The position numbers were made by a program, and so were the translations under genes. A stretch of 64,000 nt of DNA from Corynebacterium pilosum DSM 20521 = CIP 103422 (lineage in GTDB: Bacteria > Actinomycetota > Actinomycetes > Mycobacteriales > Mycobacteriaceae): the NCBI RefSeq assembly GCF_000373805.1, contig NZ_KB892438.1:28788-92787 (forward strand). The letters are read 5' to 3'. Each line of letters starts with the position of its first letter. Positions within the stretch are counted from its first letter, which is position 1. Shown here piece by piece: positions 83-61,650 of the stretch. Under the pieces are notes generated by a model. That model was not told the DNA's origin and did not search any database. It saw only the letters and a program-made list of their open reading frames with translations.

Positions 83-151
83 ACCCGAAACGCTACACCC
101 CCACCTGCACTGGAGTTGGCGCGGGCGGGGGTGATCGTCGTTAAGCGATGT

Positions 152-1651
152 TTAGCGGTCCAGCTTGAGCATCTTCTGGGTGTAGTCCCACTGCTCCTGG
201 AACTTGGACTGGTCGCGGATCAGTGGCTCCCCGTAGGTTGGGATCATTTCGTAGAGCTTCGGGCCCCACTCGATCATGTGCTCGCCGAAGCAACGCTCGA
301 TGAGCTCCAGCATGGCGGCCGGTGCGATGGACGCACCAGGGGATGCACCGAGGATACCGGCGATGGAGCCTTCCTGGTTGTTCACAAGCGCGGTGCCGAA
401 CTCCAGGGAGCCGAAACGTGGTGGTGCCGATGGCTTGATCACCTGCACGCGCTGGCCGGCAACGATGGTCTCCCAATCCGAGCCCTCAGCGGAGGGGACA
501 TATTCCTTCAGGGTTTCGATCTTCGCGTCGAAGTCCTTCATCACTTCCTCGACCAGGTACTTCACCAGGCCGAAGTTGGTTGCCGCAACGCCCAGGTAGG
601 ACGGGATATTGTCCAGGCGAATGGACTTGAACAGGTCCAGGTAGGAACCTTCCTTGAGGAACTTCGGGGTCCAGCCACCGTATGGGCCGAACAGCAGACC
701 CTTCTCGCCATCGATCACGCGGGTATCCAGGTGAGGCACCGACATTGGTGGAGCGCCCACCTTGGCCTTGCCGTAGACCTTGGCGTTGTGCTGCCCGATC
801 AGCTCTGGGTTGGTGGAGCGCAGCCACATACCGGAGATGGGGAAGCCTGCGTAGCCGCGGACCTCTGGCACGCCTGCCTTGCGCAGCAGGTCCAGGGCGT
901 AGCCGCCGGCGCCGACGAAGACGAAGCGGGCCTTGGTGACCTTCTTGTCGCCGGTATGCACGTTCTTCACGGTCACGCGCCAGGAGTTGCCGTCCTTCTT
1001 CAGGCCGATGACTTCGTGGCCGTAGCGGACCTCAGTGCCTGCAGCTTCGGCAGCGGTGAGGAACTGGCGGGTCAGCGCGCCGAAGTTGACGTCGGTGCCT
1101 TCCTTGGTCCAGGAGATCGCCACTGGCTCTGCGCCGAAGTCGCGCTCCTTGGCCATCAGCGGCAGCTTCTCGGCGAACTCGGAGTGGTCGTCGGTGAATT
1201 CCATCGCCGGGAAGAGGTGGTTATCGTTCAGCAGTTCGTAGCGACGACGCAGGTAGTCAATCTGGTCCGGGCCCTGTGCGAAGGAGACATGCGGGACGGG
1301 GTTGATGAACTCCTTTGGGTTGGTCAGAATGCCATTGCCCAGCTGGTGTGCCCAGAACTGGCGGGAGACCTGGAACTTCTCGTTGATGTTCACCGCCTTG
1401 GTGATGTCAATCTTGCCGTTCTTTTCTGGCGTGTAGTTGAGCTCACACAGTGCGGAGTGACCAGTACCGGCGTTGTTCCAAGGGGAGGAAGATTCCTCTG
1501 CGGGGCCGTCCAGGCGCTCGTAGATCATCTGCGTCCAGCTTGGCTCCAGCTCACGCAACATGGCGCCGAGGGTTGCGCTCATCACGCCTGCGCCGATCAG
1601 GGGGACGTCGACCTCATCTTGGGCATTGCCGGTTGTATTTTCGTTCGTCAC
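152..1651 (-). CDS. mqo: malate:quinone oxidoreductase
   Basis: Membrane-associated FAD enzyme that oxidises malate to oxaloacetate and passes electrons to menaquinone; in corynebacteria it is the main malate oxidation step of the TCA cycle. The 499 residues match the usual length of about 500. A dinucleotide-binding segment (VPLIGAGVMSATLG, about residues 16-29) lies at the N terminus, and the family motifs WNNAGTGHSALCELNYTP and GASPGASIAPAAMLELIERC are present. The start is GTG at 1651, with AGAGG about 9 nt upstream; no ATG fits better. The next gene downstream on the same strand is the partial VOC gene, separated by about 70 bp. Confidence 0.97.
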   Translation of the reverse strand: MTNENTTGNAQDEVDVPLIGAGVMSATLGAMLRELEPSWTQMIYERLDGPAEESSSPWNNAGTGHSALCELNYTPEKNGKIDITKAVNINEKFQVSRQFWAHQLGNGILTNPKEFINPVPHVSFAQGPDQIDYLRRRYELLNDNHLFPAMEFTDDHSEFAEKLPLMAKERDFGAEPVAISWTKEGTDVNFGALTRQFLTAAEAAGTEVRYGHEVIGLKKDGNSWRVTVKNVHTGDKKVTKARFVFVGAGGYALDLLRKAGVPEVRGYAGFPISGMWLRSTNPELIGQHNAKVYGKAKVGAPPMSVPHLDTRVIDGEKGLLFGPYGGWTPKFLKEGSYLDLFKSIRLDNIPSYLGVAATNFGLVKYLVEEVMKDFDAKIETLKEYVPSAEGSDWETIVAGQRVQVIKPSAPPRFGSLEFGTALVNNQEGSIAGILGASPGASIAPAAMLELIERCFGEHMIEWGPKLYEMIPTYGEPLIRDQSKFQEQWDYTQKMLKLDR

Positions 1652-1856
1652 CTGTTTAAACCTCTTTTGTTGTCTCTCTTCCGCCTGCGTTCACGTTCCC
1701 GTCACGTGTTAGCTGCCGGAACACCCGCAGGCGATGGCTTCTTTTCCATAGTACGCCGATACACGGCGGGGGTGCCATCTATGGCCTGGTTCATCCCCTT
1801 TTGTTGGTATCCCCTCCCCTTCCGGGGGTACTGCGGGGTCATCCGTGCACCCTGAC

Positions 1857-1868
1857 GCTTGACGACGA
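1857..1868 (-). repeat. example copy of the dispersed TCGTCGNNAAGC motif (intergenic)
   Basis: One of the seven intergenic copies of the dispersed gapped motif, here read on the minus strand. It lies between the divergent mqo and hydrolase genes, so no protein sequence constrains it. The other intergenic copies begin at 135, 6590, 28437, 34833, 39355 and 50599. Confidence 0.6.
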
Positions 1869-1894
1869 GCACCTAGCCCATCCCGCTTGTCGCC

Positions 1895-1907: not shown

Positions 1908-2909
1908 ATGACACCTTCCGCACGACATTTCGACGATGCCGGCTGGCATCCCGACGAATTAGGTGACCACTTCGAATCCACCGATATCCACTTAGGCCCA
2001 GACCCAGAGGGCGAAGGCGAGGCCGTAGCCACGCTGGTGCGCCATCTTCCCGACGAGCCCACAGGAAAACCCGCGCTGCTGTGGGTCCACGGGATGACGG
2101 ACTACTTCTTCCACGACCACGTGGCTCGCTTCTTCGCCGCCGAAGGCTACCCCTTCTACGCCGTCGATCTGCGTAAATGCGGGCGGGCACGCCAGAAGGG
2201 CCAGACGTGGCACTATGCGGAGGATCTAGAGCACTACTTTCCTGACCTGTCCGCGGTCGCGCAGATGCTTGCCGAACGCCACGGCTCGTTCGTACCCATT
2301 GCGCATTCCACCGGCGGCTTGATCGTTCCCTTGTGGGCGGACCATGTGCGCCGCACCGCTTCTGAGATCCACCAGGGGCTTGCCGGTATCGTTCTTAACA
2401 GCGCGTGGTTGGACATGATGTACCCGCAGTGGGCGTTGACGCTGGCCAAGCCCGTGATCAAGTTCGTCGGCAAGCGCTGGCCGCGGATCGCTATCCCAGG
2501 CGGAAACCTGGGCTCCTACGGCAAGTCCATCCACTCCAGCGCGCATGGCCTGTGGGATTTTGATCTTGAGAAGAAGCCACTGGGCGGACATGAGAAGTAT
2601 CTGGGCTGGGTGCGTGCGGTGATGGCTGGCCAGGCGCAGATCCACCGCGGCGATATCGATGTCGGCGCACCCGTCTTAAGTTTGTGCTCGAACAAGTCCT
2701 ACTTGAATCAGCCTTATTCTGCAGCTGCAGACACCGCAGACACGGTCCTGGACGTGGACCAGATTCAGCGCTGGTCTCCGCGACTGTCCCATGACGTGCG
2801 CGTAGTGGAGATCCCCGGCGCCCGCCACGACGTATTCTTGTCCCTAGAAAACCCGCGCCAGCAGGCTTTTCAGACAACACTGCGGTGGCTTTCCCAGTTG
2901 GGTCAGTAG
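1908..2909 (+). CDS. alpha/beta hydrolase (lysophospholipase-like)
   Basis: A 333-residue serine hydrolase of the alpha/beta fold. The oxyanion strand-turn LLWVHGMTDYFF is at about residues 56-67. The nucleophile elbow is an AHSTGG segment (G-x-S-x-G variant with Ala first) in the middle of the protein, and a late GARHD segment supplies the probable catalytic His. The overall pattern resembles monoacylglycerol lipase/lysophospholipase L2 proteins. There is no signal peptide, so it is probably cytosolic. ATG 1908 is chosen because it follows both a TANNNT box and an AGGTGG stretch. It is divergent from mqo. The codons for YSAAAD at 2717-2732 carry a near-perfect copy of the dispersed 16-bp palindrome. 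Substrate is unknown. Confidence 0.8.
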   Translation: MTPSARHFDDAGWHPDELGDHFESTDIHLGPDPEGEGEAVATLVRHLPDEPTGKPALLWVHGMTDYFFHDHVARFFAAEGYPFYAVDLRKCGRARQKGQTWHYAEDLEHYFPDLSAVAQMLAERHGSFVPIAHSTGGLIVPLWADHVRRTASEIHQGLAGIVLNSAWLDMMYPQWALTLAKPVIKFVGKRWPRIAIPGGNLGSYGKSIHSSAHGLWDFDLEKKPLGGHEKYLGWVRAVMAGQAQIHRGDIDVGAPVLSLCSNKSYLNQPYSAAADTADTVLDVDQIQRWSPRLSHDVRVVEIPGARHDVFLSLENPRQQAFQTTLRWLSQLGQ

Positions 2910-3007: not shown

Positions 3008-4423
3008 GTGACCACCCCCGCAGCACCCGCTGTCGATGCTCATTATGACTACATCATTATCGGCGCCGGTTCCGGCAACTCGATCCCAACGGAGGACTTC
3101 GACGACAAGTCCATCGCCATCGTCGAAAAGGGCCTCTTCGGTGGCACCTGCATGAACGTCGGTTGCATCCCGACGAAGATGTACGTGGTGGCTGCGGATA
3201 CCGCACTGTCCGCATCCGACTCTTCCCACTTGAACCTGGATACTGAGTTCCATGGTGCAGATTGGAAGTCCATCATCGAGCGCGTTTTCCACAACCGCAT
3301 CGACCTGATCGCCCAGGGCGGCGAGGAGTACCGCCGCGGCCCGGAGACACCGAATATCACGGTCTACGATCACCACGCTTCCTTCCTAGCGCCGAAGACC
3401 ATTCAGACCGGCCAGGGCGATGAGCAGAAGATCATTTCGGGCGAGACGATCATCATCGCCACCGGTTCGCGCCCCGTGATCCCCGAGGTGATCCAGGAGT
3501 CGGGCGTGCCTTTCCACACCAATGAGACGATTATGCGCTTGGACAAGCAGCCGGAGTCCCTGACCATCGTCGGCGGCGGTTTCATCGCCATGGAGTTTGC
3601 CCACGTATTCCAGTCCCTAGGCACGAAGGTCACGGTGGTGAACCGCTCGCCACTGCTGCGCACCCTTGATAAGGACCTGACCGAGCGCTTCAATGATCTG
3701 ACGCAGCAGCGCTACACCACGCACATCGGGCGTACGGTCGCTGGCGCGCGTTCCGACGATCACAGCGTCACCCTCGTGCTTGACGACGACACCGAGGTCA
3801 CCTCAGAAGCTCTGCTGGTTGCGACGGGCCGCAAGCCCAACGGGGATCAGATGAATCTGGATTCTGCTGGCATTGAGATGCGCCCGGATGGCCGGATCGC
3901 TGTCGACGAGTTTGGCCGCACCACAGCCGAGGGCGTGTGGGCGCTGGGCGATGTGTCCTCGCCTTACCAGCTGAAGCACGTGGCAAATGCGGAGACCCGC
4001 GCTGTGCGCCACAACATCCTGCACCCAGACGAGATGGTGCCGATGCCACATGACAATGTGCCGTCCGCCATCTTCACCCATCCGCAGATCGCCACCGTGG
4101 GATTGACGGAGGAACAGGCCCGCGAGCAAGGCTATTACGTAACGACGAAGGTCCAGAACTATGGCGATGTCGCCTACGGCTGGGCACTGGAGGATAAGAC
4201 CGGCATAGTGAAGCTGGTAGCTGATCGCCAGTCTGGCAAATTGCTGGGTGCGCATTACATGGGTCCACAGGCGGCCACGTTGATCCAGCAGATGATTACC
4301 GTTATGGCCTTTGATCTGGACGTTCGCGAGGTAGCCACCCACCAGTACTGGATCCACCCCGCCCTGCCGGAAGTCACAGAGAATGCCTTGCTTGGGCTGG
4401 ACTTTGAGTTTCCTGACGTTTAA
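3008..4423 (+). CDS. mtr: mycothione reductase
   Basis: NADPH-dependent flavoprotein that reduces mycothiol disulfide and so maintains the actinobacterial thiol pool in the cytosol. The 471 residues match the family. FAD-binding IIGAGSGN is at about residues 17-24. The redox disulfide Cys48-Cys53 lies in GGTCMNVGCIPTKM. An NADPH-binding IVGGGFIAMEFA segment follows in mid-protein, and the C-terminal His450/Glu455 pair sits in HPALPEV, which forms the active site across the dimer. The start is GTG 3008 after CAGGAG. Glutathione reductase and lipoamide dehydrogenase share the fold, but the CMNVGC active site and the GSGN FAD loop favour mycothione reductase. Confidence 0.93.
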   Translation: MTTPAAPAVDAHYDYIIIGAGSGNSIPTEDFDDKSIAIVEKGLFGGTCMNVGCIPTKMYVVAADTALSASDSSHLNLDTEFHGADWKSIIERVFHNRIDLIAQGGEEYRRGPETPNITVYDHHASFLAPKTIQTGQGDEQKIISGETIIIATGSRPVIPEVIQESGVPFHTNETIMRLDKQPESLTIVGGGFIAMEFAHVFQSLGTKVTVVNRSPLLRTLDKDLTERFNDLTQQRYTTHIGRTVAGARSDDHSVTLVLDDDTEVTSEALLVATGRKPNGDQMNLDSAGIEMRPDGRIAVDEFGRTTAEGVWALGDVSSPYQLKHVANAETRAVRHNILHPDEMVPMPHDNVPSAIFTHPQIATVGLTEEQAREQGYYVTTKVQNYGDVAYGWALEDKTGIVKLVADRQSGKLLGAHYMGPQAATLIQQMITVMAFDLDVREVATHQYWIHPALPEVTENALLGLDFEFPDV

Positions 4424-5682: not shown

Positions 5683-6579
5683 TTAGTCCCAGGGCGAGGT
5701 GAACTCGTCGTCGGGAAGCGTCAAAATCTCATTGCCGTCCTCCGTGATCACGATGGTGTGCTCGAACTGGGCGGTGAACTTGCCATCCAAGTTTTGGATC
5801 GTCCAGCCGTCGTCCCACATGCGGTAGGGCAACTCGCCCAGATTGATCATCGGCTCAATCGTCAGCGTCATACCCGGCTCCAGAACATCCGTGTAGGCAT
5901 CGGAATCATAATGCAGCACCACCAGCCCATTGTGGAAGGTGGGGCCCACACCGTGGCCCGTGAAGTCCGTGACCACGTTGTATCCGAAGCGCTTCGCGTA
6001 GGACTCGATCACGCGCCCAATCACGTTCACCTGCCGGCCAGGCTTGGCCACCTTGATGCCGCGCATCGTCGCCTCGCGGGTACGTTCCACCAGCAGGCGA
6101 TGTTCCTCGCTGACGTTGCCGGCCAGGAAGGTAGCGTTCGTGTCGCCGTGCACGCCGTTCTTGTACGCGGTCACATCAATGTTGACGATGTCCCCGTCCT
6201 GAATCACCGTGGTATCCGGGATACCGTGGCACACAATCTCATTGAGGGACACACACGTGGCCTTGGTGAAACCCCGGTAGCCCAGGCAGGAAGGGTAGGC
6301 GCCGTGGTCAATCATGTACTCGTGGGCCACCGCATCGATCTCGTCGGTCGTCTTGCCGGGCTCCACAGCCTCCCCCGCCAGTGCCAGAGCGTTGGCAGCG
6401 ATCTTCGAGGCCTCGCGCATTGTCTCAATCACCTCAGGCGTCTGCACGAAAGGCTCGCCCACGTTCTCTTGGACAGTGTCCTTCCACACATACTCGGGCC
6501 GCTCGATGTGCTTGGGCACATCGCGGATCGGGGTGGGTTTTCCTGGGGTCAACATTGCGCGTTCAGTCATGGCAACCAT
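5683..6579 (-). CDS. map: methionine aminopeptidase, type I
   Basis: Removes the initiator Met from nascent proteins; two metal ions in the cytosolic active site. It has 298 residues with an N-terminal extension of about 45 ([11 protein letters not shown]), as in the MetAP1c forms of actinobacteria. The pita-bread metal ligands are visible in order: [19 protein letters not shown] (two Asp), [10 protein letters not shown] (His), TIEPMI (Glu), QFEHTIV (Glu). The ATG at 6579 is chosen because AAGGA lies 7 nt upstream; the alternative ATG at 6570 is too far from it. It is the last gene of the dxr-rip1-ispG-pbp-map run, 25 bp after pbp. Confidence 0.96.
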
Positions 6580-6604
6580 GCTAGTCCTTGCTTGCCGACG
6601 AAGC

Positions 6605-8419
6605 CTAAGCCGGGTTGACCGCCTGATCGTAGTTAACCAACATATTGTCGGTGATGGCCACCGCTGCTTCCGAACCGCCGCCGAGAACCACGAGCGTGGC
6701 AAAAGCAATATCGTCCCGGTAGCCCGCAAACCAGGAGTGCGAACCCTGGTTGATTTCGGCCTCACCGGTCTTGCCGTGGATCTCTCCGCCGGCGCTCATG
6801 CCCCGGGCCGTACCCTCCGTGACCACTGAGCGCATCATTTGGCGCACCCCGTCGATGGATTCGGGGCTGAGTGGCGGCACCTCTTCGCTGACCTTCGTCT
6901 CTTGCCCCTCAATCAGATATGGCACCGGGCTGGCACCATTGGCTGCGGTGGCTGCCACCATCGCCAAGCCGAACGGACTGGCTAGGTCATAGCCCTGACC
7001 GTAGCCGGCCTCGGTGCGCTCCAGTGGGGTCTCGCCTTCGGGGATAGAGCCGGTCATCGTATCCAGCCCCGGAATGTCATAGTCGATGCCCAAGCCGAAT
7101 TGCTTGCCCACCTCCTGCAGCTCGCCCGGAGCAAGCTTCGTCGACATGTCCGCGAATGTGGTGTTGCACGAGCTCGCGAATGCACGCTGCAAGGGCACGC
7201 TGCCCAGCGAGAAGCCCGCGTAGTTGGTCACCACACGCCCATAAATATCCATGGTGCCTGGGCACGGAACGATCGAGCTTGTAGCCAGCCCCTGACGCTC
7301 AAGACCCGCAGCGGCGGTGACGATCTTGAACACCGAGCCCGGCGGGTACTGCCCCATCAGCCCAATATTGCCGTCCTTATCAGCGGCAGGCGTCTGCGCC
7401 ACCGCCAGGATCTGGCCTGTCGACGGGCGCACCGCCACAATCACCGCCTGCTGGCCCGCCACCGGCTCCAGGGCAGCCTCGGCTGCGCGCTGCAGCTTGT
7501 GGTCCAAGCTGATCCGGACCGCAGGCGACGGCGTGGGTGCGTGGTACTCCACGTCCTCCATCGCAGCACCCTCCTGGTTCACCTTGGCCACGCGCCAGCC
7601 GTTCGCCCCGTCCAGCTGATCACCTACGATGCGTCCCACACGCGCCATAATGTCAGGCGCGAACGTCGGATCCGCATTCACCATGGCGGCCTCTTCGTTC
7701 AGGCGCACGCCGGGTTCGTCGGCAAGCGCATCCGCTACCTCCTGGCCCCCTGCCTGTGGGATCATCGCCACCGAAAAAGTACCTTGGGCATTTTCCAGTG
7801 CTGCGGTCAGCTCACCGGCATCGCGCGTGGGCACCTGCGGATTGCGTTCGTGGGCTGCGGCGAGCGCCTCAGAAATCGCGAAGGCGGTCTCGGGGGCGCG
7901 ACGCATCGCAGACGTATCGACGAGCAACCGGAACGCCACGCCAGGTTTCAATAGTTCAGCACCGTCCGAAGAGACCACGGACGCTTTCTCCGCCTCTACG
8001 GGCCGCAGCTCTAGGTGCTGGTGCGCGCCCAAGGAGGGGTGCAGCAAGGAGGGCTGCCAGCGCACCGTCCACTCCTCGTCCGTCTGGGTCAGAATCATGG
8101 AGGTGTCATAGGCCAGCTCGCGATCGCGCGGCAGCTGCCACCGCAGCGAATAGCTCGCGGTAGCAAGGTTGTCATTTTGCTCAAGACCTGTGAGTTCGGC
8201 TTCCAGGCCCTCCGCTTGCAAACCGGCGAAGGTGGCGTCGATGGCGGCAGTCGCCGTGGGGGAATCGTCGATAAGCGAACCAAGCGTGTCCGAATCGTGC
8301 GCGGCCAGCGCGTCCAGAAATTCTTGGGCGGTAGGCTCGGCTGAATTCGGCTTCGGCGTGCATGCGACGAAGCCGGCACCGAGGAGCATCACGGTGAGCA
8401 GAACCCAGAGGCGTCTCAT
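6605..8419 (-). CDS. penicillin-binding protein (class B-type transpeptidase lipoprotein)
   Basis: A 604-residue D,D-transpeptidase of peptidoglycan synthesis, anchored outside the membrane. It has a short hydrophobic N terminus ending GAGFVAC, probably a lipobox. An NTF2-like MecA_N-type region and a dimerisation region follow. The transpeptidase domain shows the three penicillin-binding motifs: Ser362-x-x-Lys365 (SVFK), Ser417-Cys-Asn419 (SCN) and Lys550-Thr-Gly (KTGE). There is no glycosyltransferase domain. Start ATG 8419 is preceded by TATTTT at 6 nt, so it may be leaderless as well as read through from ispG. The order ispG-pbp-map matches other corynebacteria. Confidence 0.9.
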
Positions 8420-8480: not shown

Positions 8481-9644
8481 CTAGCGAGTAACCTTGACTT
8501 CCGCCTTGGCCCCCGCCTTCGCCTCGAGGCCTTCTTCCTCAGCGATCTGGTGTGCCATCTCAATGAGCGTATCGACGATCTCCTCCTCCGGAACCGTCTT
8601 GACAACCTCGCCCTTGACAAAGATCTGGCCCTTGCCGTTACCGGAGGCAACACCCAAGTCCGCGTCGCGCGCCTCGCCCGGGCCGTTGACAACGCAACCC
8701 ATAACCGCAACGCGGAGTGGGTACTCCAGGTTCTCCAGACCGGCGGTAACATTTTCTGCCAGGCTAAACACGTCCACCTGGGCGCGACCACAGGACGGGC
8801 AAGAGACGATCTCCAAGCCGCGCTCGCGCAGGTTCATCGACTGGAGGATCTGGTCGCCGACCTTGATCTCCTCTACTGGGTCCGCGGACAGGGACACGCG
8901 GATGGTGTCACCGATACCCTGGCTCAGCAACGCGCCGAAAGCCACGGAAGACTTGATGGTGCCGCGGAACTTCGGGCCGGCCTCCGTCACGCCGAGGTGC
9001 AGCGGGTAGTCCGTCTGCGCGGCCAGCTGGCGGTAGGCCTCCACCATCAGCACTGGGTCCGAGTGCTTCACGGAGATGGCGATATCGCCAAAGCCGTGCT
9101 CCTCGAACAGGTTAGCCTCCCAGATCGCGGACTCCACCAGTGCCTCTGGAGTTGCTCGTCCGTATTTTTCCAGCAGGCGCTTATCCAAAGAACCGCCGTT
9201 AACGCCGATGCGGATGGGGATGCCCGCATCGCCCGCTGCCTGTGCGACTTCCTTGACGCGGCCGTCGAACTCCTTGATATTGCCCGGGTTCACGCGCACT
9301 GCGGCACAGCCGGCGTCGATCGCCGCAAAAATGTACTTCGGCTGGAAGTGGATGTCAGCGATGACGGGGATGGGCGATTTCTTCGCGATGATCGGCAGTG
9401 CTTCTGCATCGACCGTCTTCGGGCAGGCCACGCGCACAATATCGCAGCCCGCGGTGGTCAGCTGCGCGATCTGTTGCAGGGTGGCGTTGATGTCATGCGT
9501 TTTCGTCGTGGTCATCGACTGCACGGTCACCGGGTGATCGGAGCCGACCCCTACCCCGCCGACGGACAGCTGGCGGGTCTTACGGCGCGGTGCGAGTGTG
9601 GGGGCTGGGCCTTCCGGCATTCCGAGGCCGATGGGTGAATTCAT
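8481..9644 (-). CDS. ispG: 4-hydroxy-3-methylbut-2-enyl-diphosphate synthase (GcpE)
   Basis: A 4Fe-4S enzyme of the methylerythritol phosphate (MEP) isoprenoid pathway that converts ME-cPP to HMBPP. It has 387 residues. The N-terminal TIM-barrel begins [18 protein letters not shown], and the conserved AVRVNPGNI and RIGVNGGSL segments follow. The C-terminal cluster ligands sit in [11 protein letters not shown] and [12 protein letters not shown]. The start is ATG 9644 because GAGGAG lies just upstream; a TTG 12 nt further out is less likely. It is co-directional with dxr and rip1, so two MEP-pathway genes share this operon. Confidence 0.97.
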
Positions 9645-26503: not shown

Positions 26504-26577
26504 AATCTCCCCCTGAGAAAGTGTGTTGGTACACCTTCATCATGAGGGCCCGGGAGGCGTTCGTCGATACGCGACGA

Positions 26578-28435: not shown

Positions 28436-28457
28436 CTCGTCGATAAGCGCGCTAAAA

Positions 28458-39277: not shown

Positions 39278-39370
39278 GCTTCAACACTCCCTTAAGTAGC
39301 TAATAGATAATGCACCTAGCCTAGCGTGTCGCCGCCCCCTTGGTCACATTGCACTCGTCGAAAAGCGAGG

Positions 39371-45915: not shown

Positions 45916-46194
45916 ACATTCCCGGAAGCCTTGCTCCCCGCGTGGCTCGGAGAACTGCGTAATCACGGTATCCACTCGGCCCGGGCGGCCGGCTGTGGAG
46001 GGGTCTTCGTCGAGAAGCGAAAGAAGCTTCTCGACGAGCGCCTGCTCCCCTTCAGCGACGACCTCAACGCGGCCGTCGCGCAAATTCCTCGCGTGCCCGG
46101 TGAGTCCAAGTTCGAGGGCGCGGGAGCGGGTCCACCACCGGAAGCCGACGCCTTGGACGTGTCCGTGGACAAAGGCTGTAACTCGTGTGCTCAT
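45913..46194 (-). CDS. acyP: acylphosphatase
   Basis: A 93-residue enzyme that hydrolyses acyl phosphates. The signature VHGHVQGVGFRWW holds the catalytic Arg; the catalytic Asn is in GHARNLRDGRVEVVAEG. ATG 46194 follows TAAAAT at 7 nt. The gene contains an inverted pair of the TCGTCGNNAAGC motif (46007 and 46026). It is next to smc, a common actinobacterial arrangement. Confidence 0.94.
   Translation of the reverse strand: MSTRVTAFVHGHVQGVGFRWWTRSRALELGLTGHARNLRDGRVEVVAEGEQALVEKLLSLLDEDPSTAGRPGRVDTVITQFSEPRGEQGFREC
46007..46037. repeat. inverted pair of the TCGTCGNNAAGC motif inside acyP
   Basis: One copy reads left to right from 46007 and one on the other strand from 46026-46037, with a 7-bp gap. 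Together they form TCGTCGAGAAGC-7-GCTTCTCGACGA, a perfect inverted repeat with 12-bp arms. Confidence 0.7.
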
Positions 46195-50596: not shown

Positions 50597-50636
50597 CTGC
50601 TTAACGACGAAACAGTGCCCGCCCGACACGAAGAAT

Positions 50637-52076: not shown

Positions 52077-53222
52077 ATGACTGATTCAGCCCCTAGCCCG
52101 CTTGACGCGCTTGCCGACGATCCCACCATCGTGATCGCCCCAGATTCTTTCAAAGGAACTGCCACTGCCTCCGAGGCTGCGCAGTGGCTTGGTGAGGGGG
52201 TGCGGCAGATCATCGCGAACGCGGAGATTGTCATTGCACCGATGGCTGACGGTGGCGAAGGTACCTCTGAGCTTTTCGAGGGCGATCGCATCACGCTGCC
52301 CACCACGGATGCGGCCGGCCGCCTCACCGAGGCCACCTATACCTATGATGCTTCGCTCACAACTGCCTATATCGACGTCGCCGCCGCATCCGGCCTGCCC
52401 GCGGTCGCGGATGCGCCGGTGGCTGCCACCGGGGACACCTATGGCACTGGCGTGCTCATCGCGGATGCGCAGACCCGCGGCGCAACCCGCATCGTCCTGG
52501 GTTTGGGTGGGTCCGCCACGGTCGACGGCGGCACCGGCATCTTGGTGGCGCTGGGCATTAACCCGATCAACAAGGAGGGCTACACCCCGCGCAAAGGTGG
52601 CGCCCACTTGAGCGAGCTGCACGATTTTGACACCGCCAAGATGAATATTCCGGCCGCCGCGGTGGATTGGGTGCTGGCAGCCGATGTCACAGCCCCGGTC
52701 ACTGGCCCGGAGGGCGCCGCCCGCGTCTTCGGCCCGCAGAAGGGCGCCACGGAGGAAGAGGTGCAGCTTCTCGACGGGGGTCTGGCCCGCCTGTGCGAGG
52801 TCACCGGAATCGATCCCACCGCTGCCGGCTACGGTGCTGCCGGCGCTATCCCCGTGGGGGTGAGCTGGGTGTCGCAGCTGCTGCATGGTACCGACGAGCA
52901 CGTGCACCTGGTCTCTGGCGCGCGCTTGGTCGCCGATGCGCTGGGCCTGCCCGAGAAGTTAAAGCAGGCCTCTTTGGTGATTACGGGCGAAGGCAAGTAC
53001 GACGAGCAGACCGCCACCGGAAAGGTTGTGGATGTCGTCGGAAAGCTTGCTGCCGAAGCAGACGTGCCCGTAGCCATCGCCGCCGGTAAGCTGGAGGCCG
53101 ACGCGCCTGCCGGCGCGATCGCCGTCGAGCTCGTGCCAGACTTGGAGGTGGCCGAGCAGTTGCGCCGCGCCGGTGCGCAGATCGCGGTGGATTACCTCGA
53201 TATCTCCACGGTCCACGGGTAG
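52077..53222 (+). CDS. glycerate kinase (type 1)
   Basis: A 381-residue kinase of the GarK/GlxK family that makes phosphoglycerate from glycerate. Motifs: IVIAPDSFKGTATASEAAQ near the start, PMADGGEGTSELF, GLGGSATVDGGTG (about residue 140) and a C-terminal LVITGEGKYDEQTATGKV. ATG 52077 is supported by the TANNNT box; the longer frame is rejected. The last 31 bp overlap the convergent unknown gene. No glyoxylate genes are adjacent. Confidence 0.92.
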   Translation: MTDSAPSPLDALADDPTIVIAPDSFKGTATASEAAQWLGEGVRQIIANAEIVIAPMADGGEGTSELFEGDRITLPTTDAAGRLTEATYTYDASLTTAYIDVAAASGLPAVADAPVAATGDTYGTGVLIADAQTRGATRIVLGLGGSATVDGGTGILVALGINPINKEGYTPRKGGAHLSELHDFDTAKMNIPAAAVDWVLAADVTAPVTGPEGAARVFGPQKGATEEEVQLLDGGLARLCEVTGIDPTAAGYGAAGAIPVGVSWVSQLLHGTDEHVHLVSGARLVADALGLPEKLKQASLVITGEGKYDEQTATGKVVDVVGKLAAEADVPVAIAAGKLEADAPAGAIAVELVPDLEVAEQLRRAGAQIAVDYLDISTVHG

Positions 53223-53593
53223 AGCGAGGGTAGTTCGAAGTCCGTCTCGCGCTCTAAGGCCACAGGATCGGCCGGCAGGTCAGCCTTCGGGGTGAGGATG
53301 CGCGACAGCCCCATGGCCAGCTGGTTATAGGAGCGCACATTGTCTGCTGTGACGATGATGCGGTGCATGCTGGCCTCGTCCGGGTCTTCGCCGCGCTCAT
53401 CGCGGTAGACGTTGCGCAGCTGCTCCACCGTAAAGTCTTCACACTGTTGGCCCGGGGTGTGGGCGACAGCGCCGTCGCTCAGCATCTGGTGTTTTTCAAG
53501 GATCTCGACCGCTCGTCGAAAAGCGTCCACGAGCTCAGTTGCCGCGGACTCGGGCTGGTCCGGGATCAGGATGTCAAACTGGATTGAAGGCAT
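53192..53593 (-). CDS. hypothetical protein
   Basis: A 133-residue soluble, acidic protein (MPSIQFDILIPDQPES... with DAFRRAVEILEKHQML, and a late NVRSYNQLAMGLSRIL helix). I recognise no family. Support for coding: ATG 53593 follows TAGTCT at 6 nt, the frame is open throughout and composition is normal. The 31-bp tail overlap with glycerate kinase is a weak point, though a stop overlap of this size is tolerable. It is divergent from the GalT-like gene 30 bp away. Confidence 0.65.
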   Translation of the reverse strand: MPSIQFDILIPDQPESAATELVDAFRRAVEILEKHQMLSDGAVAHTPGQQCEDFTVEQLRNVYRDERGEDPDEASMHRIIVTADNVRSYNQLAMGLSRILTPKADLPADPVALERETDFELPSLYPWTVEISR

Positions 53594-53623: not shown

Positions 53624-54967
53624 ATGACGTTCCCAATCCATTCTTACCGCGAAGCCCTCTCCACGATGGCGGACGGCACAATTAAACAGATCAATCCGTT
53701 CTCCGGAACCCAGGTGTGGACGGTGCCCGGGCGTGGCAATCGTCCCCTGTCGAAGCCGAAGCACGACGCACAGCCGCTCGGGCCGGAAGACTTCACCCAC
53801 TCCTGCGCCTTTTGCTCCGGGAACCCGCTGCAGACGCCACCGGAGAAGTCGCGCATGGTGCGCGGCAGCGACGGCGATTGGCACATCCTGCGCGGCCTTC
53901 TTCCTGATGAGATGGAGCAGGCCGATGCCGCTTTTCGACGAGTGCCCAACCTCTTTGAGATCGTGTCCTATGACTACTGGGTGGAAAATTACCAGTATGA
54001 GATGGCCTCTGATACCGCTTTCCAGATGCAGCGCTACATTTCCGACGAGCGCGGGCGCCAGCACGTGATCGATATCGTGCGCACGCGCCTCAACGCTTCG
54101 GGCAATGGCCAAGGCGACGAGATGACAGATGAGGAGCTGCTGGCGAAGGCACCGACCTATTTTGCGGGAGGCCACGATGTGATCGTGTCCTCGCGCCACT
54201 ATATCGACGGGGCGACGGATGATTCGCAGCTGGCGTCCTCCGGCACGATGACACCGGATGAGCACTACGGGTTCACCGCTTTTACTATCGACGCGATGCG
54301 GGACCTGTATGAGAACAACCGTTACGCACCGTACGTGGTGGTGTTCCAGAACTGGCTGTCTGCTGCCGGCGCATCCTTCGATCACCTGCACAAGCAGTTG
54401 GTGGCGATCGACGAGCGCGGCGTGCAGACCGACATGGAGATCCAGAAGCTGCGCACCAACCCGAACATGTACAACGAGTGGGCGGTCAACTACGCCAGCT
54501 ACCACAACCTGGTGATCGCGGAGAATGACTACGCGATCCTGATCGCGGGCATCGGCCACCGCTACCCCACCTTGGGCCTGTACTCGAAGTCAGCGGTACC
54601 GGAGCCCTGGTTGCAAGCCCCGGAGGAGGTGCGCGGCATGTCTGACCTGCTGCACGCAGCGCACGCCGCCACTGGCCCCGATATCGCCTGCAATGAGGAG
54701 TGGCACCACAAACCTGTCGATTTGGACATGCCGATGCCGTGGCGCATCAATCTGAAGTGGCGCGTGTCCACCCTGGCTGGTTTTGAGGGTGGCACCAAAG
54801 TGTACGTGAACACGATTTCCCCGTTTGACCTGCGCGATCGGGTGGTCAGCTCGATGTACAAGTTGCGCGACGAAGGCAAGATCGAATCGTCGATACGCAT
54901 TGCGACAGAGTGCTCGGCAGCGACAAACGTGTTGCGATATAACCCGATGCTGCATCTGACGCAGTAG
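53624..54967 (+). CDS. DUF4921 family GalT/HIT-fold protein
   Basis: A 447-residue protein of the galactose-1-phosphate uridylyltransferase-like (HIT) superfamily. A FCSGN segment (about residue 66) resembles the zinc site of GalT; the active-site triad equivalent is FDHLHKQ (H-x-H-x-Q, about residue 255). It is annotated in actinobacteria as DUF4921; it may be a nucleotidylyl-transferase or phosphorylase acting on a sugar or nucleotide phosphate. I infer no exact substrate. ATG 53624 is preferred over GTG 53615 because of the TACTGT box. It lies among carbon-metabolism genes (glycerate kinase, glgP). Confidence 0.78.
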   Translation: MTFPIHSYREALSTMADGTIKQINPFSGTQVWTVPGRGNRPLSKPKHDAQPLGPEDFTHSCAFCSGNPLQTPPEKSRMVRGSDGDWHILRGLLPDEMEQADAAFRRVPNLFEIVSYDYWVENYQYEMASDTAFQMQRYISDERGRQHVIDIVRTRLNASGNGQGDEMTDEELLAKAPTYFAGGHDVIVSSRHYIDGATDDSQLASSGTMTPDEHYGFTAFTIDAMRDLYENNRYAPYVVVFQNWLSAAGASFDHLHKQLVAIDERGVQTDMEIQKLRTNPNMYNEWAVNYASYHNLVIAENDYAILIAGIGHRYPTLGLYSKSAVPEPWLQAPEEVRGMSDLLHAAHAATGPDIACNEEWHHKPVDLDMPMPWRINLKWRVSTLAGFEGGTKVYVNTISPFDLRDRVVSSMYKLRDEGKIESSIRIATECSAATNVLRYNPMLHLTQ

Positions 54968-56365: not shown

Positions 56366-58753
56366 ATGAACCAGCCTGCTACCCCGCCTGCATTAGAGAC
56401 CACCGTCGGTGGCCATGTACGTGCTTACTCCGGCCAGTCGCCGCAGTCAGCAACTAACTACAAGTTCTGGGCCGGCCTTGCCGCCGCAGTCCAAGAACAG
56501 ATCGCAGACAAGTGGGAGGCAACCAACAAGGCCTACAACGCCACCCGCAAGCAGTCCTACCTGTCTGCGGAGTTCTTGATGGGCCGTGCCTTGCTGAACA
56601 ACCTGACCAACCTCGGCCTCGTCGACGAAGCCGCCAAGGCCGCTGAGGCCAACGGGCACAACCTGACGGACGTGCTCGAGGCCGAGAACGATGCTGCGCT
56701 AGGCAACGGTGGCCTCGGCCGGCTTGCAGCCTGCTTCCTAGACTCCTCCGTCACCCAAGACTTCCCTGTCACCGGCTACGGCCTGCTCTACCGCTACGGC
56801 CTGTTCCGCCAGGAATTCGTCGACGGCTTCCAGAAGGAGCACCCTGACGCATGGAAGGAATCGGCTTACCCATTCCTCGTGCGCCGCAACACGCAGCAGC
56901 GCATCGTGCGTTTCGACGACATGACTGTCCGCGCCGTGCCACACGACATGGCAATCACCGGCTACGACACCGACAACGTGGGCACCCTGCGCCTGTGGAA
57001 CTCTGAGCCCATGCGCGAGTTCGACTATGACGCCTTCAACTCCCAGCGCTTCTCCGATGCCATAATCGAGCGCGAAGCCGTGCACGACCTGTGCCGCGTG
57101 CTCTACCCGAACGACACCACCTACCAGGGCAAACTGCTGCGCGTGCGCCAGCAGTACTTCTTCGTGTCCGCATCCCTGCAGGAGCTCATCGACAACTACA
57201 TCGAGCACCACGGCGAGGACCTGACCGATTTCCACAAGTACAACTCCATCCAGCTCAACGACACCCACCCAGTACTGGCGATCCCAGAGCTGATGCGCCT
57301 GCTGATGGACGATCACGGCCTGGGCTGGGATGAGGCATGGTCCGTCACCACGCAGACCTTCGCGTACACCAACCACACCGTGCTCACCGAGGCCCTGGAG
57401 ACCTGGGATGAGTCCATCTTCAAGCAGCTGTTCTGGCGCATCTGGGAGATCTGCCTGGAGATTGATCGCCGCTTCCGCATCGATATGCACGAGCGTGGCA
57501 TCGCACCGGATCGTGCTCACCGCATGTCCCCCGTCCACGACGGCAAGGTCCACATGGCGTGGATCGCGTGCTACGCCTCCTACTCCATCAACGGCGTGGC
57601 GGCCCTGCACACCGAGATCCTGAAGCGCGACACGCTGAACGACTGGTTCGACATCTGGCCAGAGCGCTTCAACAACAAGACCAACGGTGTGACCCCTCGT
57701 CGTTGGCTGCGCATGTGCAACCCACGCCTGTCCGAGCTGCTGGACCGCCTTGCAGGTTCCGACGACTGGGTCACCGACATGGACCAGCTCAAGGAGCTGC
57801 GCAAGTACGCCGATGACCCAGAAGTGATGAAGGAACTCAACTCCATCAAGGTGGAGAACAAGAAGGACTTCGCGGACTGGATCCTCGAGCGCCAGGGCAT
57901 CGAGGTGGACCCTGAGTCCATCTTCGACACCCAGATCAAGCGCCTGCATGAGTACAAGCGCCAGCTGATGAACGCGCTGTATATCCTGGACCTCTACTTC
58001 CGTATCAAGGAAGATGGCGAGACCGTCCCACGCCGCACCTTCATCTTCGGTGCGAAGGCCGCCCCTGGCTACACCCGGGCGAAGGGCATCATCAAGCTGA
58101 TCAATGAGATCGGCGAGCTGGTCAATAATGACCCAGAGGTGTCCAAGGTCCTGTCCGTAGTGTTCGTGGAGAACTACAACGTCTCCCCTGCCGAGCACAT
58201 CATTCCGGCAACCGACGTCTCCGAGCAGATCTCCACCGCAGGCAAGGAAGCCTCCGGTACCGGCAACATGAAGTTCATGATGAACGGTGCACTAACCCTG
58301 GGTACCCTCGACGGCGCCAACGTGGAGATCGCAGAGGCTGTGGGCGAAGAGAATGCTTACATCTTCGGCGCGAAGGAAGACGAGCTGCCTGAGCTGCGCA
58401 AGACCTACAACCCGCAGAACGTCTACGAGAACGTCCCTGGTGTCAAGCGCGTCCTTGACGCCTTGACCAACGGCACCCTCAACGACAATGATTCGGGCGC
58501 TTTCCACGACATCCGTTCCTCCCTGCTGGATGGCGGCGGCTGGGAAACCCCGGACACCTGGTACGTCCTGGGTGACTTTGAGGATTACCGCGCCACCCGC
58601 GACCGCATGGCCGAGGAGTACTACGAGGATCCGCAGCACTGGGCACGCATGTGCTGGGTGAACATCTGCGAGTCCGGCCGCTTCTCCTCTGACCGCACCA
58701 TCCGCGATTACGCGGACGAAGTCTGGAAGATCGAGCCAACCCCGATCGGGTAA
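56366..58753 (+). CDS. glgP: glycogen/alpha-glucan phosphorylase
   Basis: A 795-residue PLP enzyme that releases glucose 1-phosphate from glycogen or maltodextrin. The start region ATRKQSYLSAEFLMGRALLNNL, the GLGRLAACFLDS segment and the PLP-site EASGTGNMKFMMNG with Lys636 are all intact. Length fits bacterial GlgP. ATG 56366 follows GTGAGGTAATT. Transcription ends at a strong terminator. Confidence 0.97.
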   Translation: MNQPATPPALETTVGGHVRAYSGQSPQSATNYKFWAGLAAAVQEQIADKWEATNKAYNATRKQSYLSAEFLMGRALLNNLTNLGLVDEAAKAAEANGHNLTDVLEAENDAALGNGGLGRLAACFLDSSVTQDFPVTGYGLLYRYGLFRQEFVDGFQKEHPDAWKESAYPFLVRRNTQQRIVRFDDMTVRAVPHDMAITGYDTDNVGTLRLWNSEPMREFDYDAFNSQRFSDAIIEREAVHDLCRVLYPNDTTYQGKLLRVRQQYFFVSASLQELIDNYIEHHGEDLTDFHKYNSIQLNDTHPVLAIPELMRLLMDDHGLGWDEAWSVTTQTFAYTNHTVLTEALETWDESIFKQLFWRIWEICLEIDRRFRIDMHERGIAPDRAHRMSPVHDGKVHMAWIACYASYSINGVAALHTEILKRDTLNDWFDIWPERFNNKTNGVTPRRWLRMCNPRLSELLDRLAGSDDWVTDMDQLKELRKYADDPEVMKELNSIKVENKKDFADWILERQGIEVDPESIFDTQIKRLHEYKRQLMNALYILDLYFRIKEDGETVPRRTFIFGAKAAPGYTRAKGIIKLINEIGELVNNDPEVSKVLSVVFVENYNVSPAEHIIPATDVSEQISTAGKEASGTGNMKFMMNGALTLGTLDGANVEIAEAVGEENAYIFGAKEDELPELRKTYNPQNVYENVPGVKRVLDALTNGTLNDNDSGAFHDIRSSLLDGGGWETPDTWYVLGDFEDYRATRDRMAEEYYEDPQHWARMCWVNICESGRFSSDRTIRDYADEVWKIEPTPIG

Positions 58754-58763
58754 GTAGAATTTT

Positions 58764-58822: not shown

Positions 58823-58832
58823 ATAAAAACTT

Positions 58833-60011: not shown

Positions 60012-60069
60012 GAGATGTTCTCCTAATGGATCGGGAGTTAAATGTCTAATTGCGAGTAGCAGTCTCTTA

Positions 60070-60873
60070 TTAGCGGCTCCAGAAAATTTGGACCATCGTG
60101 GTCGTAGTGATCGACCGGACCTTTCCATCGACAGCACGTTTCTCCATGAACGCGCGAATCTCTGGTTCTCGCTGTTCACGTTGTTTGCGATCCAGGCCAA
60201 GTCGGCCTGAATAGAACTCCACGGCAACATCGACCGTTTGATCGTTGACCCAATCGGCATCTTCGTATTCAAGTTCCGGCTTGTAACCACGCAATAGCAA
60301 TTCATTAAGCGCGAGGAGAATTGATCCGTGGCTCGGCCTGCTGTTCTGGATACCGAGAGCGTCCTGGAGCTCGTCGACAAGCGAATCACGCATGTTGGTC
60401 GGCGAGCTCATCGCGTAGTGTGATTTTGACGCTGCCAGCAGTTTCTCTAATGCGTTGCTCGAGCTAATTGCAGGAGTGTTGCGTGCAAAAACTAGGTCAA
60501 ACTTATTACGCCACCCGCGTTCATCCAGATCAACCTCGTGCCAATTTTCGCACATTAGCTCTACGTTGGATATCCCGTGCTGCTCGAGCATTGCCCTACC
60601 GGCGGCGATCATTTTTTCTGATAAATCAGTGCCGACGGCATTTTTGACCAAAGGCGCACAGGCCATACTGTATGCACCTGCTCCACATCCGACATCAAGT
60701 ATCTCCGTCTCCTCATGCAACCATCCACGCTGCTGCAGCCGCGTCAGAAAAGCATTAGAGGAAATATCTGGGACAGTATTGTAATTTGAGCGCGTGGACT
60801 GGGAATCCCACATCGCTGCATTGATGGGCGCAGGTTCAGCCCATTTTTCTTGAATTTCTTCGAGAGTAAACAC
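60070..60873 (-). CDS. class I SAM-dependent methyltransferase
   Basis: A 267-residue methyltransferase with motif I ILDVGCGAGAYSMA (about residues 59-72), an acidic loop VGTDLSEKMIAAG, and NKFDLVFARNTPA (motif IV region). There is no membrane helix. It is embedded between the ABC ATPase and the second binding protein, so its role should be tied to the transported compound, for example processing a metallophore or corrinoid after import. That link is inferred from position only. ATG 60873 lies 12 bp after the ATPase gene. Confidence 0.85.
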   Translation of the reverse strand: MFTLEEIQEKWAEPAPINAAMWDSQSTRSNYNTVPDISSNAFLTRLQQRGWLHEETEILDVGCGAGAYSMACAPLVKNAVGTDLSEKMIAAGRAMLEQHGISNVELMCENWHEVDLDERGWRNKFDLVFARNTPAISSSNALEKLLAASKSHYAMSSPTNMRDSLVDELQDALGIQNSRPSHGSILLALNELLLRGYKPELEYEDADWVNDQTVDVAVEFYSGRLGLDRKQREQREPEIRAFMEKRAVDGKVRSITTTTMVQIFWSR

Positions 60874-60885
60874 GCAAATACCTTT

Positions 60886-61650
60886 CTAAAGCGTGACGAC
60901 AACAGTGCGGTTCTTATGTTCGATTACATCAGCGGTGATCCCATACACCGCTTGCAAATTTTCCGGTGTGACAGTTTCAATACCACCGTGGGCATACACA
61001 CTCCCCTCTTTGAGGAAAACGAATGAGTCGCAGAACCTGGCAGCCAGATTCAGATCATGCATTACCGCTACAGCGGCGATCTGGTCTTCATCAACGACCT
61101 CTCGGACAGCGCGCATGACTTCGTGCTGATTGTGCGGGTCTAGGTTGTTCGTCGGCTCGTCGAGAAGCAAAATATTGGCGTCTTGCGCTAATGCCCGAGC
61201 CAAAATGACCTTCTGGAATTCACCACCCGAAAGCTCGTCGACATAACGCAAGGCAAGGTCTTTAATTCCGATTCGCGCTATTGCTTTCTCGACAAGCTGA
61301 TAATCTTTCTCCGATGGAGAAAAATTAATGTGCGGTCGCCTCCCCAGCAGCACAGCGTCAAACACGGTCAAACGCCCCGCGTGGCTATGTTGTGCAACGA
61401 AGGCGATATTTCGCGCGAGATCCATCCTGGACAGGTCTGCGACATCGCGGGAAGCCTTACCGGTTGTCAAAACGACCTTTCCCCCTGTAGGACGCAAAAT
61501 CCGGTTGAGACAAAACATAAAGGTGGATTTGCCCACACCATTGTTACCTAGTATTGCCATAAAAGAACCAGAAGATACGCTTGCGCTAACTTTGTGCAGA
61601 ATCTGGCGCCCGCTTTTGAAGGAAAAATCTATATCCGTTGCGGTAATCAT
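60886..61650 (-). CDS. ABC transporter ATP-binding protein (FecE/BtuD type)
   Basis: A 254-residue ATPase. Walker A GNNGVGKST (about residues 35-43), Q-loop in AFVAQHSHAG, signature LSGGEFQKV, Walker B ILLLDEPT, switch His in AVMHDLN. The subfamily pattern is that of iron-siderophore/cobalamin importers. ATG 61650 overlaps the permease stop by 4 nt. Confidence 0.94.
   Translation of the reverse strand: MITATDIDFSFKSGRQILHKVSASVSSGSFMAILGNNGVGKSTFMFCLNRILRPTGGKVVLTTGKASRDVADLSRMDLARNIAFVAQHSHAGRLTVFDAVLLGRRPHINFSPSEKDYQLVEKAIARIGIKDLALRYVDELSGGEFQKVILARALAQDANILLLDEPTNNLDPHNQHEVMRAVREVVDEDQIAAVAVMHDLNLAARFCDSFVFLKEGSVYAHGGIETVTPENLQAVYGITADVIEHKNRTVVVTL

Follow-up and report, generated by a model that had tools for sequence, protein, structure and literature searches.

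Introduction

The closest described counterparts of the element analysed here are the DNA uptake sequences (DUS) of the Neisseriaceae and the uptake signal sequences (USS) of the Pasteurellaceae. Two families are named as having a strong sequence preference (PMC7811141). The DUS has about 1,900 copies in 2.2-2.3 Mb, and published counts per genome range between 943 and nearly 6,000; at about one per kb, genic as well as intergenic, no other word is as common in the genomes of meningococci and gonococci, and its eight dialects follow phylogeny and limit exchange (PMC3630211). For the USS, 1,465 copies are reported (PMC7811141), and its cores, AAGTGCGGT and ACAAGCGGT, are described together with weaker flanks, 17-base extended forms, two dialects in two clades, and molecular drive (PMC7811141, PMC12616744). 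Transformation of Micrococcus luteus depends on tad genes, and the combination of tad with ComEA/ComEC is frequent in actinobacteria (PMC4322843). Here we describe a gapped word, TCGTCGNNAAGC, that is dispersed over a 64,000-nucleotide stretch of Corynebacterium pilosum DSM 20521 (contig NZ_KB892438.1, positions 28,788 to 92,787; “the window”).

The analyses summarized below characterize TCGTCGNNAAGC as a genome-wide word, present on both strands and spelled in dialects, which is likely to be an uptake sequence for a predicted Tad/Flp competence pilus. In the available part of a survey of spaced motifs, only CRISPR-derived pairs are given for Corynebacterium, and not the word CRTCGNNAAGC that unites these dialects (PMC5217627).

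Abundance of the motif in the window and in the genome

The window contains 45 copies of TCGTCGNNAAGC (Table 1), compared with a mean of 0.21 and a maximum of 2 in 100 dinucleotide shuffles. It is the top over-represented gapped word of the 6+4 type, for which 0.91 copies are expected from its parts. All 42 positions listed in a first-pass annotation of the window are present; three copies (2464 and 9860 on the forward, 41739 on the reverse strand) had been overlooked, as had a second form, TCGTCGNNACGC, with 17 copies versus 0.46 expected. The core with a first base other than that of TCGTCGNNAAGC, likewise overlooked in the first pass, was found five times, versus 0.81 expected.

The genome around the window (G000; 2,531,632 bases, 2.53 Mb, in 35 contigs) contains 814 forward and 779 reverse copies, i.e. 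1,593 in total or one per 1.6 kb, so that the excess first noticed in the window is borne out genome-wide. The reversed control pattern occurs 22 + 7 = 29 times. As is characteristic of uptake sequences, the copy number is in the range of hundreds to thousands and far above the sequence model. The second form is in use beyond the window as well: CGTCGNNACGC is present 148 times in 417 kb of G000, versus 16.5 expected; 124 of the 148 copies are preceded by T, and the G-rich flanks resemble those of the main form. The corresponding values are 51 versus 11.4 in G016 and, more weakly, 33 versus 12.8 in G088.

A signal at the level of DNA

To distinguish genic from intergenic copies, genes were called with a simple codon-usage script on 446.6 kb of G000 (395 genes). 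This sample contains 319 copies, of which 37 are intergenic (0.757 per kb), 279 are inside one gene (0.701 per kb), and three are partial or overlapping. Among the 280 coding copies, 94 are in sense and 186 in antisense orientation, which agrees with the preference of the coding strand for GCTTNNCGACGA reported in the first pass. In 100 shuffles of synonymous codons within genes, the means were 11.3 sense and 5.7 antisense copies (about 17 together), with maxima of 18 and 14. All seven copies previously regarded as intergenic were confirmed as such, and the new gene calls raise the number to 10 of 45, because the copies at 22129, 22422 and 22551 fall in an open reading frame (21838-22614) that was not called as a gene.

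For comparison, we determined how often the motif is present where the amino acid sequence permits it. This is the case at 279 of 394 places in G000, versus 12.3 expected from codon use, and at 188 of 293 places in G088. In the motif-free genomes G014, G010 and G065, the values are 0 of 35, 0 of 36 and 0 of 37. The reversed control word occupies 13 of 365 permitted places in G000, versus 11.6 expected.

The bases around the core were analysed in six contexts, i.e. five frame classes and the intergenic copies, each with at least 12 copies. G is enriched near -5 (-4 to -6) and near -11 (-10 to -12) in all six. G at +12 is enriched in five of them (it follows 30 of the 37 intergenic copies, 81%), and G at -2 in three. 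Constraint thus reaches beyond the strong core, and the extended word comprises about 24 bases.

The results support a DNA-level signal that is genic and intergenic and occurs in both orientations, as is typical of uptake sequences, because of the codon-aware controls, the occurrence in every reading frame as well as in intergenic DNA, and the upstream G residues in all six contexts. This is in line with the first-pass annotation, which had argued that protein sequence alone does not explain the word. It was considered whether protein motifs (Leu-x-Asp-Asp/Glu), codon usage or biased mutation could produce the word without any DNA signal, given that the majority of copies is genic and that GCTTNNCGACGA dominates in sense orientation (186 of 280). 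The equal coding and intergenic densities, the 17 instead of 280 copies after synonymous shuffling, the upstream G pattern in every context tested, and the empty permitted places of the motif-free relatives make this explanation vanishingly improbable.

Distribution, orientation and pairing

On the 326.6-kb contig C1 of G000, the number of copies per 5-kb bin has a mean of 3.45 and a variance of 3.31, i.e. the distribution is Poisson-like, with fewer copies in bins of lower GC content (Spearman 0.50). In 20 stretches of 20 kb each from G088, the single-contig genome of a relative, the G-rich strand carries 105 and the C-rich strand 121 copies (p = 0.32), whereby some of the stretches are nearly without skew. 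Over 101 Corynebacterium genomes, 40,718 core copies are in forward and 40,840 in reverse orientation.

The strand-skew values led to the rejection of a Chi- or KOPS-like polarity (KOPS: FtsK-orienting polar sequences), and do not support a polar form of the Chi-like or FtsK-orienting site that had been offered as one option in the first pass. Chi sites are known as words of 8 bases with a polarity towards the origin. A recombination or repair site of Chi type could also work in both orientations and be read by an enzyme of the RecBCD/AdnAB type; the word is frequent, dispersed, short and non-palindromic, and Chi words vary between species (PMC3630211). The non-polar distribution and the extended consensus of about 24 bases are both unlike known Chi sites, and we regard such a site as very unlikely.

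In the 446.6-kb sample, only 12 pairs of copies are within 60 bases of each other, nine of them in opposite orientation (p = 0.15 versus an even split). One pair frames a terminator-like stem, as judged by eye (L159, 9430/9480). A terminator as the main function of the word was rejected, because close pairs are rare and short spacings are not in excess.

Dialects in the genus Corynebacterium

For a count throughout the genus, TCGTCGNNAAGC and VCGTCGNNAAGC were summed as the core CGTCGNNAAGC in 101 Corynebacterium genomes. These fall into two groups, i.e. 75 genomes with 280-1,891 core copies and 26 with 8-134 (reversed control 30-91). In G000, G016, G085 and G088, 73-92% of the core copies are preceded by a T; the share does not exceed 37% in any of the 71 remaining motif-rich genomes. 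The same division is seen among 19 named genomes, of which 14 have 352-1,875 and five have 24-134 core copies; examples are C. glaucum (DSM 30827) with 1,553, C. senegalense with 1,465, C. tuscaniense with 874, C. lemuris with 858, and C. falsenii with 24.

De novo searches retrieved CGTCGNNAAGC as the first or second word of the 5+4 type in all seven motif-rich genomes searched. In three of seven seemingly motif-free genomes (G006, G052, G093), pieces of GGCATCGNNAAGC were at the top. The genome-wide numbers of CATCGNNAAGC are 1,021 in G006, 680 in G052 and 736 in G093; G072 has 213 copies, and each of the remaining 97 genomes has 12-159. Together, the 75 genomes rich in CGTCGNNAAGC and the three with CATCGNNAAGC show that 78 of the 101 genomes contain a strong form of the word. 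The shared scaffold is CRTCGNNAAGC (1,969 copies in G000 versus 112 of the reversed control), and clade-specific dialects of one scaffold are a further trait of uptake sequences that is found here.

No comparable enrichment was found in 149 genomes from 55 other genera of the order, in which CRTCGNNAAGC reaches at most about 2.1 times the reversed control (table inspected by eye). De novo searches in 80-140 kb each of the motif-free genomes G014, G038, G010, G065 and G032 retrieved no comparable word. CGTCGNNSAGC, suggested by G038, was rejected as a further dialect (1,132 copies versus 757 of the reversed control in that genome).

Seven genomes (G072, G083, G040, G061, G013, G076, G091) have in-between numbers, about 100-300 of either form, and may represent decaying or beginning systems. 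Further over-represented words were noticed in two genomes: the palindrome-like TAGTCNNACTA in G044 (L211-L214) has 12 hits on both strands of 80 kb, versus 0.13 expected, and ACCGTNACAT and CCGTGACAT in G020 (L207-L210) have 16 and 18 hits, versus 0.46 and 0.74 expected.

Switching of dialects in place

A comparison of the window with the loci of 20 relatives (19 named Corynebacterium and one Actinomycetales) has low power, with the motif at 14 of 122 aligned sites, and sister species were therefore used. In a TadA tree of 31 rows, with several long branches and 8 of 28 inner branches open, G006 (CATCG) is the sister of G004 (CGTCG; 100/100). G016 (T) is joined to G048 in a starred five-row clade with four non-T rows, and the starred branches require at least two changes for the T. 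The aligned stretches of both sister pairs, G004/G006 and G048/G016, are 79-80% identical.

Of the 34 CGTCGNNAAGC sites of G004 that could be aligned (excluding stretch L222, which overlaps L293), 20 are CATCGNNAAGC in G006, and none has retained CGTCG. By comparison, the 270 aligned background occurrences of CGTCG, all outside the motif, include 68 that are unchanged and 32 that are CATCG (Fisher test versus motif sites, 4e-9). Reciprocally, 20 of 31 CATCG sites of G006 are CGTCG in G004, and three are CATCG. Of the G004 sites that could be aligned with the outgroups, 4 of 9 in G052 and 3 of 7 in G093 are CATCGNNAAGC, and not one is CGTCGNNAAGC; it was therefore most likely the G004 line that replaced an A by a G. 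A decay of methylated CG would run in the opposite direction and does not fit. For the T dialect, 6 of 13 conserved non-T sites of G048 have turned to T in G016, versus 14 of 260 in the background (p = 8.8e-5), and T is retained at 20 of 20 conserved T sites.

Because one base has been rewritten at site after site and the other eight core bases have been kept, this pattern points to a trans-acting reader of changed specificity, combined with genome-wide drive or selection. We see no mutational account that fits the site-by-site rewriting. Among the three options offered in the first pass, i.e. an uptake sequence, a Chi-like or FtsK-orienting site, and a nucleoid-protein site, the uptake sequence fits best, because the dialects of the species switch in place.

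A trans-acting reader of changing preference could also be a nucleoid or chromosome-organising protein that binds the word in either orientation, with dialects that track its DNA-reading surface. The even, non-polar spread over the chromosome and the low density in plasmids and phages (see below) would be compatible with such a protein. Conversely, about a fifth of the counted genomes lack the word, and if it were essential for chromosome architecture, a switch at 20 of 20 sites with the other core bases kept would hardly be tolerated. We know of no nucleoid site that occurs once per 1.6 kb and whose one-base dialects are exchanged between sister species, and consider this explanation unlikely.

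Density in mobile DNA

In 12 Corynebacterium plasmids and phages (601,922 bases), CRTCGNNAAGC is present 43 times, about 71 per Mb, and the reversed control 13 times. The density of the core in G000 is 747 per Mb; as the count covers the plasmid and phage records but not their host chromosomes, the scarcity in mobile DNA is suggestive only.

The low density in these records would also be expected if the word marked DNA as self for a defence system, whether by restriction, methylation or otherwise, e.g. as a protective word. Restriction targets are usually avoided rather than enriched. A decay through methylation would require changes from G to A at CG, whereas the probable direction in the G004 line is from A to G, and a defence mark thus appears highly improbable.

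Uptake machinery and receptor candidates

In G000, comEA (HHH_3, SLBB) adjoins comEC (PF03772). In the tad cluster, the genes for a T2SSE ATPase and two T2SSF proteins are accompanied by those for a small pilin-like protein (DUF4244) and for two small TadE/TadF-like proteins, one of which has a weak PF13400 match below the cut-off and the other no match; the labels Flp, TadE and TadF were assigned by position and shape. Among the 101 genomes, ComEC and DprA are present in all, T2SSE is over the cut-off in 97, and the prepilin peptidase A24 in 94 (100 at E 0.001). ComEA was found in all ten com loci inspected, and Flp-like, TadE-like and TadF-like proteins in 30, 29 and 29 of 31 tad loci; in G072, the contig ends there. 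In the tad locus of the motif-free G038 (L276), TadA and a Flp-like gene are present, and neither of the small TadE/TadF-like genes was detected.

The genes for an uptake machinery are thus present, with competence being predicted from them, and this gene set together with the precedent of M. luteus makes an uptake route in Corynebacterium plausible. The dprA and comM genes of the window had been called only suggestive in the first pass, which is adequate, as DprA is present with or without the motif.

Several potential markers were rejected. Motif-rich and motif-free genomes cannot be told apart by the presence of ComEC, DprA, the prepilin peptidase or the T2SSE ATPase. In the TadA tree, the ATPases of the motif-free G010, G015 and G065 form a long-branched clade of their own, but those of the likewise motif-free G014 and G038 group with the rest, and this clade was not used as a marker. 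The comEC-adjacent clusters c11 and c12, which by eye resemble a LysE-type exporter and an ankyrin protein, are present in several motif-rich genomes and missing in G010, G065 and G015; they were rejected as receptor, because the motif-free G014 has both.

Other features of the window

The coordinates of the features are compiled in Table 1. The signal-recognition protein of the window is most similar to that of Corynebacterium; among the first 20 loci listed, 18 carry this name (74-87% identity). Mycothione reductase is also encoded in the window. The GC content drops to 0.546 in the last 8 kb of the window, and only 2 of the 45 motif starts are beyond 54000; the region 54500-64000 looks like acquired DNA. 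A perfect 16-base palindrome, TTCTGCAGCTGCAGAA, occurs six times in the window (18653, 33599, 40622, 40664, 41034, 58805) and 15 times in contig C1, partly intergenic and partly genic. It is absent from six other 20-kb stretches of G000 and from 400 kb of G088.

Table 1. Copies of the motif, copies of its second form, and two genes in the 64-kb window.
Feature	Position	Strand	Evidence and remarks
motif TCGTCGNNAAGC	135..146	+	pattern match; intergenic
motif TCGTCGNNAAGC	1857..1868	-	pattern match; intergenic
motif TCGTCGNNAAGC	2464..2475	+	pattern match; overlooked in first pass
motif TCGTCGNNAAGC	3778..3789	-	pattern match
motif TCGTCGNNAAGC	5708..5719	+	pattern match
motif TCGTCGNNAAGC	6590..6601	-	pattern match; intergenic
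motif TCGTCGNNAAGC	7716..7727	+	pattern match
motif TCGTCGNNAAGC	8265..8276	+	pattern match
motif TCGTCGNNAAGC	9860..9871	+	pattern match; overlooked in first pass
motif TCGTCGNNAAGC	11201..11212	+	pattern match
motif TCGTCGNNAAGC	13247..13258	+	pattern match
motif TCGTCGNNAAGC	17108..17119	+	pattern match
motif TCGTCGNNAAGC	18182..18193	-	pattern match
motif TCGTCGNNAAGC	19069..19080	+	pattern match
motif TCGTCGNNAAGC	22129..22140	+	pattern match; no gene called
motif TCGTCGNNAAGC	22422..22433	-	pattern match; no gene called
motif TCGTCGNNAAGC	22551..22562	-	pattern match; no gene called
motif TCGTCGNNAAGC	28437..28448	+	pattern match; intergenic
motif TCGTCGNNAAGC	30796..30807	+	pattern match; corresponding position also has motif (T or other first base) in 5 of the 9 loci of relatives that align
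motif TCGTCGNNAAGC	32147..32158	-	pattern match
motif TCGTCGNNAAGC	33645..33656	-	pattern match
motif TCGTCGNNAAGC	34833..34844	-	pattern match; intergenic
motif TCGTCGNNAAGC	36519..36530	-	pattern match
motif TCGTCGNNAAGC	36786..36797	-	pattern match
motif TCGTCGNNAAGC	38048..38059	+	pattern match
motif TCGTCGNNAAGC	39355..39366	+	pattern match; intergenic
motif TCGTCGNNAAGC	40560..40571	+	pattern match
motif TCGTCGNNAAGC	41739..41750	-	pattern match; overlooked in first pass
motif TCGTCGNNAAGC	43436..43447	-	pattern match
motif TCGTCGNNAAGC	44099..44110	+	pattern match
motif TCGTCGNNAAGC	44150..44161	+	pattern match
motif TCGTCGNNAAGC	44576..44587	+	pattern match
motif TCGTCGNNAAGC	46007..46018	+	left arm of inverted pair; start-to-start 19 bases, tightest of 12 close pairs
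motif TCGTCGNNAAGC	46026..46037	-	right arm of inverted pair; CGTCGNNAAGC preceded by A/G at aligned place in 5 of 8 relatives' loci
motif TCGTCGNNAAGC	47504..47515	-	pattern match
motif TCGTCGNNAAGC	48154..48165	+	pattern match
motif TCGTCGNNAAGC	48794..48805	+	pattern match
motif TCGTCGNNAAGC	49912..49923	+	pattern match
motif TCGTCGNNAAGC	50599..50610	-	pattern match; intergenic
motif TCGTCGNNAAGC	52109..52120	-	pattern match
motif TCGTCGNNAAGC	53035..53046	+	pattern match
motif TCGTCGNNAAGC	53513..53524	+	pattern match
motif TCGTCGNNAAGC	53930..53941	-	pattern match
motif TCGTCGNNAAGC	60371..60382	+	pattern match
motif TCGTCGNNAAGC	61157..61168	+	pattern match
variant TCGTCGNNACGC	3748..3759	-	pattern match
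variant TCGTCGNNACGC	8567..8578	-	pattern match
variant TCGTCGNNACGC	11609..11620	+	pattern match
variant TCGTCGNNACGC	23103..23114	+	pattern match
variant TCGTCGNNACGC	24232..24243	-	pattern match
variant TCGTCGNNACGC	26561..26572	+	pattern match
variant TCGTCGNNACGC	32115..32126	+	pattern match
variant TCGTCGNNACGC	33219..33230	+	pattern match
variant TCGTCGNNACGC	33728..33739	+	pattern match
variant TCGTCGNNACGC	33983..33994	+	pattern match
variant TCGTCGNNACGC	35570..35581	+	pattern match
variant TCGTCGNNACGC	43193..43204	+	pattern match
variant TCGTCGNNACGC	43655..43666	+	pattern match
variant TCGTCGNNACGC	44268..44279	-	pattern match
variant TCGTCGNNACGC	48269..48280	-	pattern match
variant TCGTCGNNACGC	54887..54898	+	pattern match
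variant TCGTCGNNACGC	56908..56919	-	pattern match
dprA (DNA recombination-mediator protein A)	23477..24640	-	PF02481, 189.8 bits; putative role in motif system
yifB/comM (Mg-chelatase-like AAA ATPase)	24637..26154	-	TIGR00368, 437.9 bits (24637-26184); PF01078, PF13541; putative role

Discussion

If TCGTCGNNAAGC is an uptake sequence, the Tad/Flp pilus would prefer DNA of its own kind during natural transformation, with the word serving as a tag. The word would be bound either by ComEA or by a receptor on the pilus, with a TadE/TadF-like minor pilin as the foremost candidate; bound fragments would be pulled in and handed to ComEA and ComEC, and recombination would be aided by DprA. Biased uptake and recombination would let the word accumulate (molecular drive). 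A change in receptor preference would lead to the re-spelling of existing sites one at a time, and a loss of uptake specificity to their decay. Our assessment leans, by a little, towards an independent evolution of a self-DNA uptake word in Corynebacterium, with at least three dialects, a Tad/Flp pilus through the mycomembrane, and site-by-site re-spelling of genomes.

Several results weigh against an uptake sequence. Inverted pairs of the terminator type, which are common with DUS and USS, are rare, and spacings below 50 bases on contig C1 are not in excess (6 observed, 7.7 expected). The G at +12 is not enriched in one of the frame classes. The turnover of sites is fast, as seen in the comparison of the window with its relatives, and the switch to the T dialect is based on 13 sites. 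The 43 copies in plasmids and phages exceed the reversed control. ComEC and DprA in all and Tad genes in nearly all 101 genomes are found in motif-rich and motif-free species alike, and motif-free species with the machinery would have to have lost specificity or expression. No receptor was found among the comEC-adjacent clusters, and the amino acid identities of TadE, TadF, Flp, ComEA and other proteins between both sister pairs singled none out. Among the papers listed by searches of the open-access literature (subscription papers not covered), none showed a natural transformation of Corynebacterium or an uptake sequence in Actinobacteria.

If the proposed function is true, this would be the first uptake-sequence system beyond the Gram-negative families named in the cited literature, and a further independent origin with which the coevolution of receptor and word can be tested. 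Natural transformation would then be possible, under one condition or another, in the majority of species of a genus that includes skin commensals, pathogens and industrial workhorses. They would select DNA by a readable tag, so that the search for competence would become direct and genomes could be used to predict the partners of gene exchange. The sister pairs with switched dialects would represent a natural experiment for the identification of the receptor.

Chi and KOPS/FtsK sites are, like TCGTCGNNAAGC, short, dispersed and oriented words; they are polar along the replichores, whereas TCGTCGNNAAGC is non-polar in G088. The transformation of M. luteus by Flp pili involves the same phylum, a tad cluster, ComEA/ComEC and a distant prepilin peptidase gene; the available text mentions no sequence preference, and the term “uptake sequence” occurs in it 0 times (PMC4322843). 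The DUS of the Neisseriaceae, with the receptor ComP, resembles the Corynebacterium word, with its 1,593 copies in G000, in density, in the genic and intergenic spread, and in the existence of dialects. The DUS is continuous, whereas the Corynebacterium word is gapped, unrelated in sequence and found in a Gram-positive actinobacterium with a Tad/Flp pilus and predicted uptake. Terminator-forming inverted pairs, which are typical of DUS and USS, are seldom seen here, with only 12 pairs of copies within 60 bases in the 446.6-kb sample. The USS of the Pasteurellaceae, with the predicted receptor ComN/PpdA, likewise consists of a core with weaker flanks and has dialects; its downstream flanks are AT-rich, whereas the Corynebacterium word is G-rich upstream, has two free bases inside the core, and has several dialects within one genus. 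Compared by eye, the scaffold CRTCGNNAAGC is unrelated to the Neisseria DUS (GCCGTCTGAA) and to the USS cores AAGTGCGGT and ACAAGCGGT, and the word was therefore not assigned to either family. It is a real, genus-wide DNA word with dialects, which, judged by sequence, appears uptake-sequence-like and stands beside DUS and USS rather than belonging to them.

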